Assembly: GCA_019637955.1 (NCBI GenBank)
Contig: JAHBUS010000001.1
Location: 248,001-312,000, forward strand
DNA length: 64,000 nucleotides
Source: Pseudobdellovibrionaceae bacterium
Lineage (GTDB): Bacteria; Bdellovibrionota; Bdellovibrionia; Bdellovibrionales; Bdellovibrionaceae
Direction of reading: 5' to 3'
In this document: positions 36,381 to 40,345 of the stretch, piece by piece
Numbering within the stretch: position 1 is the stretch's first letter
How the letters are laid out: the number at the start of each line of letters is the position of its first letter
Program-made: the position numbers and the translations under genes
The notes under the pieces: model-generated
The model's database searches: none
What the model was told of the DNA's origin: nothing
The model's input: only the letters and a program-made list of their open reading frames with translations

Positions 36381-36938
36381 ATGAAGATCTACACCAAAAA
36401 AGGAGACCAGGGCAAAACGCGCCTCGTGGGCGGCTGCTTGGTTTCAAAATCAGATCTTCGCATCGAGTCGTACGGCTCGGTTGATGAACTGAACAGCGCC
36501 ATCGGCGTCACCATCGAAGAGCTGCGCGCGACCAACCTTTTCGCCGACATGATGAAAGAGCTTTCGCAAATTCAGAACGAACTCTTTTGCTTGGGAAGCC
36601 TGCTGGCCTGCGAAGACCCCGAACTCTTTAAAAAGCTACCACAAATTCCTGAAGACTCGATCTCACGCCTGGAGACCTCCATCGATCATATGACCGCCAA
36701 ACTCCCTGCCCTTAAAGAGTTTATTCTTCCCGGGGGGACGCGCGCGGCGGCTTGGATGCATATCTGCCGCACGGTCTGCCGGCGGGCGGAGCGCAACACC
36801 GTGAAACTTTACGAGACGCACCCCGAAGTCGAGGCCGCGCTGATTTACCTCAACCGCTTGAGCGACTACCTCTTTACCGCCGCCCGCGCCTGCAACTTTG
36901 AGCTGGGCCACCGTGAGCAGACCTGGGTGAAACCGTGA
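36381..36938 (+). CDS. Cob(I)alamin adenosyltransferase, PduO type
   Basis: Transfers the adenosyl group of ATP to cob(I)alamin to make coenzyme B12. The 185-residue protein has the PduO/MMAB signatures IYTKKGDQGKTRLVGG (ATP-binding), ESYGSVDELNSAIG and FILPGGTRAAAWMHICRTVCRRAERNT divided over one helix. GGAGG-like sequence (CTGGAGGA) precedes the ATG. Overlaps the next gene by 4 nt (GTGA). Confidence 0.93.
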   Translation: MKIYTKKGDQGKTRLVGGCLVSKSDLRIESYGSVDELNSAIGVTIEELRATNLFADMMKELSQIQNELFCLGSLLACEDPELFKKLPQIPEDSISRLETSIDHMTAKLPALKEFILPGGTRAAAWMHICRTVCRRAERNTVKLYETHPEVEAALIYLNRLSDYLFTAARACNFELGHREQTWVKP

Positions 36939-38065
36939 GGCTTGAACGCGCGGGACAAGAGAACGAAGCCGAGCTTCGCCAATTTTTCGAACAATTCGCC
37001 CTCTCAAGCGTGGTGGACCTCAAAGTCCGCCGCCCGCATGACTTTTTTGCGCCCTACCGTCTGCAATCCGACGACTTTGAAACTCTGGTTTTGCGCGAAA
37101 ACGATGGCTCTCTGCACGGGGTCGCCAGCTTCATCTACCGCGATGTGTTCTTCGAGGACCGCGTGCAAAAAATCGCGATCGCGACCGATCTGCGCGTGCA
37201 ACCTTCGCGCAAGGCGATCTTGCAGTGGTCGCAGCACTTTTTGCCGGTTCTTCGCGAAGCGATGACCAGCCGAGGCGTCAATTCGGTTCAAAGCGTGATC
37301 AACACGGCCGATCCGATCGCGTTCAACGCCTTCGTGCGCCCCCGTCAAATCAAGCGCGCCTTTCCACGTTACCACTTGTACCGAAAATTCAGCTTGGTCA
37401 CCCTGCACGGTCGTCTCCCCTGGGCGCCCACGCCGGTGAGGGGACTTCGCATCCGTCAGGGCGAAAGCCGCTGGCTCGGACCGATCATCGAGTACATCTC
37501 GCGGCGCGCGCCCTACCGCGCGTTCTGCTCGGCGTGGGACGAAGAGAGTTTCTTCAAAAAAATTGGCCGCCTCCCCGGCTTCCGTCTCGAAGACATGTGG
37601 ATCGCGTTCGATGCGAACGAAAAGGTCGTTGGCATGATGGCTCCGTGGTCCCCGCTTCAGACGCAAGAGTACTGTCCGCTCAGCTACTCGCTGCGCGCGC
37701 ACAACTTCCGACAGTTTCTAAAGTTTGGCAGCGTTTTGGGATGGACGCGTTCACTGACCAAACCGCGCAGCCGCACGGGCGAAGAAGCGCCGCTGAAATT
37801 CCGCTTTCTCACCTTCGCGCAAGCCGACAACGAAGACATCTTTGAAAGCCTTTTGTGGACCACGTACGAATCGATCCCGAATGACGAGTTCTTGTGCTAC
37901 GCCCACTGCAAAACGGACTTCCGCATGAACCCACCCAAATCATGGATCTCGGCCGAACTCCCCTTCGCGCTGTACTCGGTGATTCCGCCGGAGGACACAC
38001 CCCCGGCCTACCTGCACCCCACGCACTCCCTCAACCCCGAAATCGAAGCCGCCTACTTCTTTTAG
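36935..38065 (+). CDS. GNAT-like N-acyltransferase domain protein
   Basis: A 376-residue cytoplasmic protein, start GTG overlapping the adenosyltransferase stop. Residues 20-170 look like a GNAT domain (LRENDGSLHGVASFIYRDVF, then IAIATDLRVQPSRKAILQW); a second, weaker GNAT-like half follows around residues 170-260 with FDANEKVVGMMAPWS. Substrate unknown. Its stop codon is immediately followed by the left inverted repeat of the RAYT element. Confidence 0.6.
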   Translation: MRLERAGQENEAELRQFFEQFALSSVVDLKVRRPHDFFAPYRLQSDDFETLVLRENDGSLHGVASFIYRDVFFEDRVQKIAIATDLRVQPSRKAILQWSQHFLPVLREAMTSRGVNSVQSVINTADPIAFNAFVRPRQIKRAFPRYHLYRKFSLVTLHGRLPWAPTPVRGLRIRQGESRWLGPIIEYISRRAPYRAFCSAWDEESFFKKIGRLPGFRLEDMWIAFDANEKVVGMMAPWSPLQTQEYCPLSYSLRAHNFRQFLKFGSVLGWTRSLTKPRSRTGEEAPLKFRFLTFAQADNEDIFESLLWTTYESIPNDEFLCYAHCKTDFRMNPPKSWISAELPFALYSVIPPEDTPPAYLHPTHSLNPEIEAAYFF

Positions 38066-38078
38066 GGTGCCTGGCACC
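38066..38078. repeat. REP-like palindrome, copy 1 (left end)
   Basis: GGTGCCTGGCACC, a perfect palindrome around a central T, starts at the base after the TAG stop (38063-38065) of the GNAT-like gene. Confidence 0.85.
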
Positions 38079-38172
38079 TTCAAAGCAGTTGCATCAATTT
38101 CGGACGAGCCTGGCTGCCGATCGCATTCTAAATTTAATGGAGACTGAAGCGGGTTTTGCTTTGAGGACTTTT

Positions 38173-38807
38173 ATGCCGAGAGCCCTCTTCGTCTGTCACA
38201 ATGAGTTCCCGTATCACATCACCGCACGCGTGAACAACCGTGATGCCTTTCCCTGCCTTGATGCCGCTTGGACAATCATGGAGGACCATCTTTTTGGTCT
38301 TCATCACTTTTACCATGTCAAAATTCTCGCCTTTGTATTAATGAACAACCACTTTCATCTTCTCGCTTGCTTCCCTCACGCAAACGCATCGACCGCACTG
38401 CGCTTTTTCATACGAGAAACTAGCCGATCCTTATCTTTGTTGGAAAACAGCGAGAATCATCTCTGGGGGCGAGATTTTACCGCACCGAAATTGCGACCCA
38501 CCACTACTATCTCAATGCTTACAAATACGTGTACCAGAACCCGGTTCGCGCCGGTGTTTGCGAAAAGGCCGAGGACTATCGATTTTCAACACTGAGGGGG
38601 CTCCTCGGCCTCCAACCACTGTTCATTCCCATAGAGGAAGATCGAACTCTTTTTTCGTCAACACAACAAACTCTCAGCTGGCTTCACGAACGTCCGCTAA
38701 GCGCCGACAACTACGTCATCCAACAGGCCCTGAAAAAATCAAAGTTCAAAATACCCATCAATCCAGCGACAAGAACGGCCCATCATTTGGACCATCGACT
38801 TTTATGA
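38173..38807 (+). pseudogene. REP-associated tyrosine transposase (RAYT, TnpA_REP), frameshifted
   Basis: The first part (38173 to about 38469) reads MPRALFVCHNEFPYHITARVNNRD and holds the HUH metal motif in LMNNHFHLL; the second part, in the -1 frame from 38469, reads ARFYRTEI...HHYYLNAYKYVYQNPVRAG, the tyrosine-bearing C-terminal region, and ends at 38807. The break is at a run of five G (38465-38469): one more G, or a -1 slip on the GGG codon, restores the family's continuous WGGRF-type sequence. Without it the HUH motif and catalytic Tyr are on different polypeptides. GAGGA precedes the ATG. It is either a decayed gene, a recoded gene or a sequencing error in a homopolymer. Confidence 0.82.
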
Positions 38808-38822
38808 CTCATGCGCTTCGAA

Positions 38823-38835
38823 GGTGCCAGGCACC
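38823..38835. repeat. REP-like palindrome, copy 2 (right end)
   Basis: GGTGCCAGGCACC; its last base is the third base of the TAG stop codon (38837-38835) of the minus-strand SRPBCC gene. Confidence 0.85.
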
Positions 38836-39290
38836 TAGAACATGCCGGTGCGCAGGTTGATTCCGTGTTCGACGTAAGCCTTCATGCAGGTGAGCATGTG
38901 CATCCATCCGCCCAAGTTTCCGCGTGAGTCTTTGTAACCGTTTTCGGAGTCTTCCCAATTAAATTCCGAGATCGTGACGAGCGTATTTTGAGGCTCCAAG
39001 GCTTCGAATTTGATTTCCACCGTCGTTTTGTAGGGCTTTCCGTCCTTCGCGGGCGAAGCGGCGTCCCAGAGAAAAACAAGGCGTTCGTTCTTCACCATCT
39101 GTTGGACGACGACGGGAAACGGCCCCGGAAAATCCGCGAACTCCCACATCACCGTTTGGCCTTCATCCAACGGAGCGCTGGCGCCGGCGGTGGTAAAGTA
39201 GCCGGCAAGTTTTTTGGGGTTGTAAACGGCATCGAAGACTTCGGCCAAAGGTTTTTGAATGCGTGCTTTCACTTCAAACTTAAGATCCAT
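38835..39290 (-). CDS. SRPBCC (AHSA1-like) domain protein
   Basis: A 151-residue START/Bet v1-like protein of the activator-of-Hsp90 homologue type: KARIQKPLAEVFDAVYNPKKLAGYFT at the N-terminus, VMWEFADFPGPFPV in the middle and LGGWMHMLTCMKAYVEHG in the C-terminal helix. Such proteins bind small hydrophobic ligands and are commonly paired with ArsR regulators, as here (divergent partner at 39339). AAAGGAG precedes the ATG at 39290. Its stop codon touches a REP palindrome. Confidence 0.85.
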   Translation of the reverse strand: MDLKFEVKARIQKPLAEVFDAVYNPKKLAGYFTTAGASAPLDEGQTVMWEFADFPGPFPVVVQQMVKNERLVFLWDAASPAKDGKPYKTTVEIKFEALEPQNTLVTISEFNWEDSENGYKDSRGNLGGWMHMLTCMKAYVEHGINLRTGMF

Positions 39291-39320
39291 AAAAACTCCT
39301 TTGTTTTCCAAAGTCATTAT

Positions 39321-39340
39321 ATGTTATATTTATATAACAT
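39321..39340. promoter_or_regulatory. Palindromic operator between the SRPBCC and arsR-family genes
   Basis: ATGTTATA-TTTA-TATAACAT, a perfect 8-bp inverted repeat with a 4-bp spacer. It overlaps the ATG (39339) of the ArsR-type regulator and lies 31-50 bp upstream of the SRPBCC start, a position suited to autorepression of both genes. ArsR-family operators are typically short AT-rich dyads like this. Confidence 0.72.
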
Positions 39341-39665
39341 GTCAACCACGGACCGATTTGACATTATTTTCAAGGCCTTAGCGGATGGACGTCGACGCGA
39401 GATCCTGGATCTGCTGCGAGACGCGCCCAAAACAACGGGAGAACTCTGCGCGCACTTCGCGCGCGAGCTGGACCGTTGCACGGTGATGCAACATCTCAGT
39501 GTGCTGGAAAACGCAGATTTGCTGATCGTTCAGCGCAAAGGGAAGTTTCGCTGGAACCACTTAAATCCCCTTCCGCTAAAGGAGATCTCGGACCGATGGA
39601 TTCAGCCCCGCGCTCGCGGAGCCGTTCAACTGTTGGCGAAATTAAAAAAAGACCTTGAAGACTGA
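39339..39665 (+). CDS. ArsR-family transcriptional regulator
   Basis: A 108-residue winged-helix repressor: FDIIFKALADGRRREILDLLRDAPKTTGELCAHF is the ArsR helix-turn-helix entry, followed by TVMQHLSVLENADLLIVQRKGKFRWNHLNP (recognition helix and wing). No metal-binding ELCVCDL motif is present, so this belongs to the non-metal branch that is often paired with SRPBCC proteins. Start ATG at 39339 lies within the palindromic operator; the frame is open upstream to 38988 but that is antisense to the SRPBCC gene. Confidence 0.88.
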   Translation: MSTTDRFDIIFKALADGRRREILDLLRDAPKTTGELCAHFARELDRCTVMQHLSVLENADLLIVQRKGKFRWNHLNPLPLKEISDRWIQPRARGAVQLLAKLKKDLED

Positions 39666-39671
39666 AGGCGC

Positions 39672-39800
39672 CTAGCGGGCGCCGCTGCCGGAACGGGTGT
39701 GGTTTTCGGCGCAGCTCATGGGTTTGTAGCTGGCGCCTTGTCCGAAACTCTCGAATGGCTTCACCAGCGGCATTTGGTGCGGACGCCAGACTTTGTCCAT
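39672..39800 (-). pseudogene. 3' remnant of a secreted-protein gene
   Basis: The frame reads MDKVWRPHQMPLVKPFESFG, then ASYKPMSCAENHTRSGSGAR and a stop: 42 residues with protein-like composition but no ribosome binding site, whose first codon falls in the RAYT-derived repeat. Its ending (SYKPMSC...SGSGAR) resembles the ending of the next gene's product (SYSKDLNC...SGGSR), so it is probably what remains of a tandem paralogue cut by the repeat. A very small functional protein cannot be excluded. Confidence 0.5.
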
Positions 39801-39853
39801 CACTTGGACCACTGACTTTTATGACTCATGTGCTTTGAAGGTGCCAGGCACCT
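39798..39853 (+). repeat. Solitary copy of the RAYT 3' end with REP palindrome (copy 3)
   Basis: These 56 bp match 38781-38836 with five differences. They comprise the last codons of the RAYT gene, its inverted repeat and the palindrome GGTGCCAGGCACC (39840-39852), which ends one base before the TAA stop (39856-39854) of the neighbouring minus-strand gene. Confidence 0.85.
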
Positions 39854-40345
39854 TTAGCGGGAGCCGCCGCTTGAAGGGCCTGAGCTTGAGGGGCGTGAGC
39901 AGTTGAGATCTTTTGAATAGCTGCCGTAGCTGGAACTTCCTGTATTGCAAGCTGCCGTCATATTCTCGTCCAACCACTGGTTCGTGCCGCCTTCAGGCTG
40001 AGTGCCACGAGGAGGGCACAAGACCGCCTTACGAGCCTTTGGATCTTCAAAAATTCGCTTGGCCGTCCTGCAAAGTTTATCGACATCAACACTGGTCGTG
40101 CTGGGGTTGTAATCCAGAATCACGTCGTAGTGTGCCGGCACCTGTTTCGGGGCAAAACAACCGAGGCGAAGCTTGCCGTTGACGACCCCGCAGCCAAGCA
40201 AAATATTCGAGTCGCACTGACCGAGAGAAATCCCCTCGGGGCAAGATTTTCCTCGAGGAGCGACCGCGCTCGGTGTCCCGACGGGCTTCGGAATCGTCTG
40301 CGCCTGTGCGCCTTGGCAGAGAATGAAGATCAAGCCCAGAATCAT
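39854..40345 (-). CDS. Secreted protein of unknown function
   Basis: A 163-residue product with signal peptide MILGLIFILCQGAQA, about eight cysteines in the mature part and a Ser/Gly-rich end. No family recognised. The segment DVDKLCRTAKRIFEDPKAR is the most structured part. GGGGAT precedes the ATG. Its 3' end abuts the solitary REP copy, so the original C-terminus may have been altered by the insertion. Confidence 0.7.
   Translation of the reverse strand: MILGLIFILCQGAQAQTIPKPVGTPSAVAPRGKSCPEGISLGQCDSNILLGCGVVNGKLRLGCFAPKQVPAHYDVILDYNPSTTSVDVDKLCRTAKRIFEDPKARKAVLCPPRGTQPEGGTNQWLDENMTAACNTGSSSYGSYSKDLNCSRPSSSGPSSGGSR

Follow-up and report, generated by a model that had tools for sequence, protein, structure and literature searches.

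REPs are short palindromes repeated many times in intergenic DNA, and their placement near gene ends has been described before. The termini of GTAG REPs often provide the TAG stop codon of flanking open reading frames (ORFs), and where REPs lie between convergent genes, the distance to either ORF end is mostly <20 bp (Di Nocera et al. 2013, PMC3733652). REPs of Escherichia coli within 15 nt of a stop codon lower translation (ref. 17, as cited in PMC12306157), and E. coli TnpAREP cuts at CT adjoining the REPs (PMC8266576). Non-GTAG structures are known for some TnpA classes (PMC6006769). Little is understood of how REPs come by their sites. Both for E. coli and for the GTAG type, REPs that lie close to stop codons or form them are already in the literature; here, we report a sharper, non-GTAG variant, first seen in a 64,000-nucleotide stretch of DNA (the window) of a Pseudobdellovibrionaceae genome (3.77 Mb, 14 contigs).

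Like the GTAG- and CGTC-tagged REPs (PMC3733652), the repeats are short dispersed palindromes close to ORF ends. Unlike them, they carry no GTAG or GT[AG]G at the 5′ foot of the hairpin in any of the listed sites; the distal end of the tail often reads YGYRT, with CGTC or CGTT solely at that end in some copies and a RAYT associated, and TAA or TAG is abutted exactly, at stops that mostly appear to have been there already. With the E. coli REPs near stops, as PMC12306157 presents them, they share a hairpin within ribosome range of the stop codon, whereas the E. coli distances in that source are spread over 1 to 20 nt with about half of the REPs involved, against −1 to +4 in two thirds of the copies here. 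The RAYT/TnpAREP REPtrons (PMC2817692, PMC8266576, PMC6006769) likewise have a Y1 HUH transposase gene between inverted REPs, although the REP here is without the GT[AG]G guide, as in classes 2.6 and 3 (PMC6006769). IS200/IS605 elements have a related Y1 transposase, and their mode of insertion, 3′ of a short fixed target, serves here as the working model; in contrast to them, the RAYT unit gives no evidence of IS-like movement, and its target motif is a candidate. A literature search for REPs with RAYTs in Bdellovibrio found nothing.

Two RAYT elements in the window

The palindrome GGTGCCWGGCACC occurs exactly at positions 38066-38078, 38823-38835, and 39840-39852 of the window. Copy 1 (plus strand; hairpin core, GGTGCCTGGCACC) stands directly 3′ of the TAG (38063-38065) of a 376-amino-acid (aa) gene without a Pfam family (36935-38065, plus strand), and its gamma-type tail (TTCAAAGCAGTTGCATCA; 38079-38096, plus strand) is directed into a RAYT element. 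Copy 2 (minus strand) is inverted relative to copy 1 and shares base 38835 with the TAG (38837-38835) of a 160-aa AHSA1-family gene (38835-39317, minus strand); its gamma-type tail (38804-38822, minus strand, reading TTCGAAGCGCATGAGTCAT) is directed into the same element. Copy 3 (minus strand) lies one base from the TAA (39856-39854) of a 163-aa ORF (39854-40345, minus strand) for a putative secreted protein, which has a signal-peptide-like N terminus and scored low in our home-made gene caller. The sequence-only reading had given these distances and called the three flanking genes unrelated, and both statements stand.

Between copies 1 and 2 lies a decayed RAYT (Y1/HUH transposase) gene (38173-38807, plus strand; 57 to 59% identity to an intact 211-aa RAYT at L048:3035-3670 of the same genome). 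It is frameshifted near 38466-38478, and five consecutive G beside this position make an error of sequencing or assembly possible. This one element has copies 1 and 2 as its inverted ends, and both ends abut stops of convergent genes; the intact RAYT has the same layout, lying between two palindrome copies that both abut stops of convergent genes, and at both elements the tails point inward. The ends are of the gamma type in the window element and of the alpha type at L048. Copy 3 is joined to a remnant of about 43 bp (39797-39839, minus strand) from the 3′ end of a RAYT element and is the right end of a second, deleted one. Since copies 1 and 2 flank one RAYT remnant and copy 3 goes with the 3′ end of a second, the window holds two insertions, not three; the earlier remark that three of three copies sit at stops is correct as a count, but the copies are not independent.

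The 211-aa RAYT matches PF01797 with 31.9 bits (cut-off, 23), and the HUH motif (NHFH) and the catalytic tyrosine (in YVYRNPVRAG) of a Y1_Tnp protein are visible. Relatives with 39 to 40% identity lie beside the same palindrome in two other genomes, G051 (L060) and G081 (L268), and a scan of genome contigs with the intact RAYT as query returned no relatives. A third Y1_Tnp-like ORF (242 aa; L051, G000:C1:835673-835855) has no flanking pair of GGTGCCWGGCACC palindromes.

Architecture and placement across the genome

All palindrome sites of the source genome were read as stretches, genes were called with a simple codon-usage script of our own, and distances were then measured. There are 45 exact copies of GGTGCCWGGCACC, nearly all of them intergenic (backwards control, 1), and very few with one mismatch. 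Each unit consists of a bare hairpin and a 15- to 19-nt tail, which is of the gamma (TTCRAAGC...; 18 copies), beta (TTTTTGAAA...; 13 copies), or alpha type (TTTTAGGG...; 13 copies, including one two-sided copy). In alpha copies, the stop codon lies inside the palindrome CTAAAAGG..CCTTTTAG. A run of 4 to 5 T follows the stem in the alpha and beta types, and 2 T in the gamma type; a terminator scan made no call on the copies in the window. The central A/T base is a near-reliable marker of orientation in this genome and fails in G051, where the tail is needed. An Rfam search gave no credible match, and inspection by eye of the cleanest convergent sites found no constant target-site duplication. 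At L038 (~3001; G000:C9:64717), an 18-bp direct duplication, CTGCAACTAACCGCATTA, brackets the repeat. At L027 (~3001; G000:C4:34141), three successive TCTAAGGTG units (TCTAAGGTGTCT, TCTAAGGTGCCTGCCGT, TCTAAGGTGCCTGGCACC) lie behind one gene, possibly a record of repeated insertion or of tandem duplication at the stop.

For 30 of the 45 copies, the distance to a predicted stop codon is −1 to +4 nt (12 at +2, 10 at 0, and two each at −1, +1, +3, and +4), well inside the 15 nt of the E. coli type; copy 3 and a 61-codon ORF at L018 would each add one. With random non-coding boundaries and random orientation, 1.59% of copies would be at stops (P[≥30/45] = 2.8e-43, with neighbouring sites not fully independent and gene calls home-made). 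Orientation is fixed, the bare hairpin facing the stop and the tail lying beyond it in 30/30. The expectation that copies would be closer to stops than random sites is thus borne out genome-wide, and the contrary case, random scatter through intergenic DNA, was not seen. Occupied intergenic regions (n = 39) are convergent in 28 cases, tandem in 10, and divergent in 1 (unoccupied, 23, 155, and 46, respectively), and nine convergent pairs are separated by only 28 to 38 nt, about the length of the repeat unit. Copies away from stops are mostly dimers (L042, L044), nested (L027, L028), or have tail-like sequence toward the gene (L020, L037).

The registration is looser elsewhere. G051, which belongs to another genus of the same family, carries 38 copies, whose hairpin is longer and whose tail differs; 6 of them are at a stop (5 exactly and 1 with a shared base), and about 15 are no more than 12 nt away. 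In G081 (a Bdellovibrionales metagenome-assembled genome), 3/41 have exact placement at a stop, and 11/41 are found within 15 nt of one. Since both have weaker linkage but also the palindrome and RAYT relatives, the hairpin core and the RAYT are common to all three, and what sets the source genome, the one representative of its genus, apart among those examined is the exact registration. A collection scan found the palindrome in many phyla, mostly away from stops, so linkage to stops does not come with the palindrome itself. Several G051 loci (e.g., L056, L066, L068, and L078) have a second dispersed palindrome, GGTACGGCGTACC, with A/T-rich arms, near the REPs.

Stop type, target motif, and age of the stops

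Stops adjoining the repeat (n = 31) are TAA in 26 cases and TAG in 5 (background: TAA, 142; TAG, 33; TGA, 66), and TGA is absent (0/31 versus 66/241, p = 1.9e-4). The base before the stop is C in 20/31 (background, 76/241; p = 5e-4), and CTAR occurs at the stop in 20/31 (background, 61/241; p = 3e-5); with 31 sites, a home-made gene caller, and several positions and motifs examined, these p-values are somewhat optimistic. The lack of TGA and the excess of C before the stop argue for a DNA target such as (C)TA(A/G). CT alone was rejected as the target, its share at stops being too low in a rough count.

Were TAR or CTAR used evenly behind background genes, the share at the stop itself would be 86 to 88% in a stretch reaching +15 nt, 82 to 83% to +20 nt, and 64 to 66% to +50 nt. 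The observed share is 31/33, with both exceptions (L026 and L027), judged by hand, being nested or non-stop TAR sites, and it fits a narrow zone of tolerance better than a wide one. Taken over all non-coding DNA, only 17 to 27% of TAR or CTAR sites would be at stops, and limited tolerance must therefore be part of the explanation. Recognition of the stop codon as such is not required: the observed share is predicted by a (C)TA(A/G) target with tolerance confined to the first 15 to 20 nt after the stop. About nine copies, mostly dimers and nested copies, have no preceding TAR, and the tail-side junctions have no single target sequence. In G051, CC precedes the bare end about as often as TAA does, so different RAYTs would need different target rules.

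The stops themselves are ancestral or nearly so at the four loci tested. At a G051 site, the same 664-aa gene is present in 19 relatives with the same stop codon, mostly followed by a terminator, and the G051 repeat lies between the two. In the source genome, citrate synthase ends 0 to 1 residues before most relatives, superoxide dismutase (SOD) 0 to 2 residues before closer relatives, and TpiA 0 to 2 residues after most relatives; most other proteins with a family match extend to the end of their profile. The genes of relatives that lack the repeat end at this codon or close to it, so the repeat inserted behind stops that already existed, in most cases upstream of the terminator. The intergenic parts of relatives are too diverged to give the exact base before insertion; for this reason no junction was seen directly, and the target rule stands as a candidate. 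Behind the stop of the 664-aa gene in three relatives (L102, G058; L103, G057; L112, G056), other imperfect AGGTACCAGGTCCT-like palindromes follow directly where the GGTGCC repeat is absent, which suggests that the same place has been used repeatedly by different REP families.

Explanations of the placement

We give a probability of roughly one half to the reading that the REP was moved by a RAYT into a (C)TA(A/G) target and retained only between stop and terminator. Under it, RAYT (Y1 HUH) transposases would move the REP elements by inserting one strand of the unit (hairpin plus tail), with the bare hairpin end joined 3′ of a (C)TA(A/G)-like target; a cut inside CTAA would agree with the CT cut that E. 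coli TnpAREP makes. Any unit landing in coding sequence or in a terminator would be lost, and survivors would be found in the short stretch from stop codon to terminator, mostly between convergent genes, where the usual (C)TA(A/G) would be the stop codon itself. The repeat's outer arm starts with A or G, which would keep the frame closed. Two thirds of the copies are at stops, then, probably because the transposase favours a short sequence that stops contain and because other landing places are not tolerated. The sequence-only reading had proposed that the system targets, or is tolerated only at, a sequence formed around stops and that the palindrome may supply termination or mRNA protection; abutment, orientation, the lack of TGA, and the C excess agree with the first half, whereas the second is weakened by the many separate terminators that remain.

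Selection on the RNA is the strongest rival, though an unlikely one: a hairpin 0 to 4 nt past the stop would lie in the footprint of the terminating ribosome and would lower or tune upstream expression or shield the 3′ end from exonucleases. The hairpin is predicted at about −9 to −12.5 kcal/mol, with the stop codon within the stem in the alpha type, and the core is nearly invariant (45 perfect copies, few with one mismatch). However, a uniform core also fits recent spread, the energies of units in the source genome are not clearly better than those of shuffles (z, −0.4 to −1.6), and the genes have no functional theme. Nor does RNA selection readily explain the C before the stop, and exact registration is absent in related genomes with the same hairpin.

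We consider it improbable that the repeats are bidirectional terminators of convergent genes, kept where they replaced or added a terminator. The nine convergent pairs just 28 to 38 nt apart, little more than a repeat, and the A- and T-runs beside the hairpin in the alpha and beta types speak for such a role, but many sites keep a separate hairpin and T-run past the tail, the gamma type has just two T, tandem genes flank ten occupied regions, and the scan did not call the window copies. Creation of the stop by the repeat is similarly improbable as a general account. Insertion near a gene end, with the outer A-run supplying TAA and truncating the old frame, would parallel the TAG given to flanking ORFs by GTAG REPs (PMC3733652); the alpha palindrome includes the stop, and citrate synthase and SOD end one residue before many relatives, so that creation one codon early is possible at single sites. 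Against this account, the stops differ from those of comparable orthologues by 0 to 2 codons, TpiA equals or exceeds most relatives in length, most matched proteins extend to the end of their profile, and at the G051 locus the stop is the ancestral one. Chance, by which intergenic repeats would end up near gene ends simply through the shortness of bacterial intergenic DNA (and most intergenic regions here are short), is refuted by the genome-wide count (null share, 1.6%; P of about 3e-43), the fixed orientation, and the bias in stop type.

This genome, in which a single hairpin core, three types of tail, and a pair of RAYT genes go with a site preference sharp enough to suggest a testable target, is a clean case for the question of how REPs choose their sites. 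It is a tentative further reading that the RAYT lineage acquired the (C)TA(A/G) target and that stop codons served as a safe harbour, letting the element colonise gene 3′ ends harmlessly. A real target of this kind would show how stop codons can offer a mobile repeat sites where insertion does no harm; if selection on the RNA is responsible instead, the E. coli finding on REPs and translation would be extended to another lineage.
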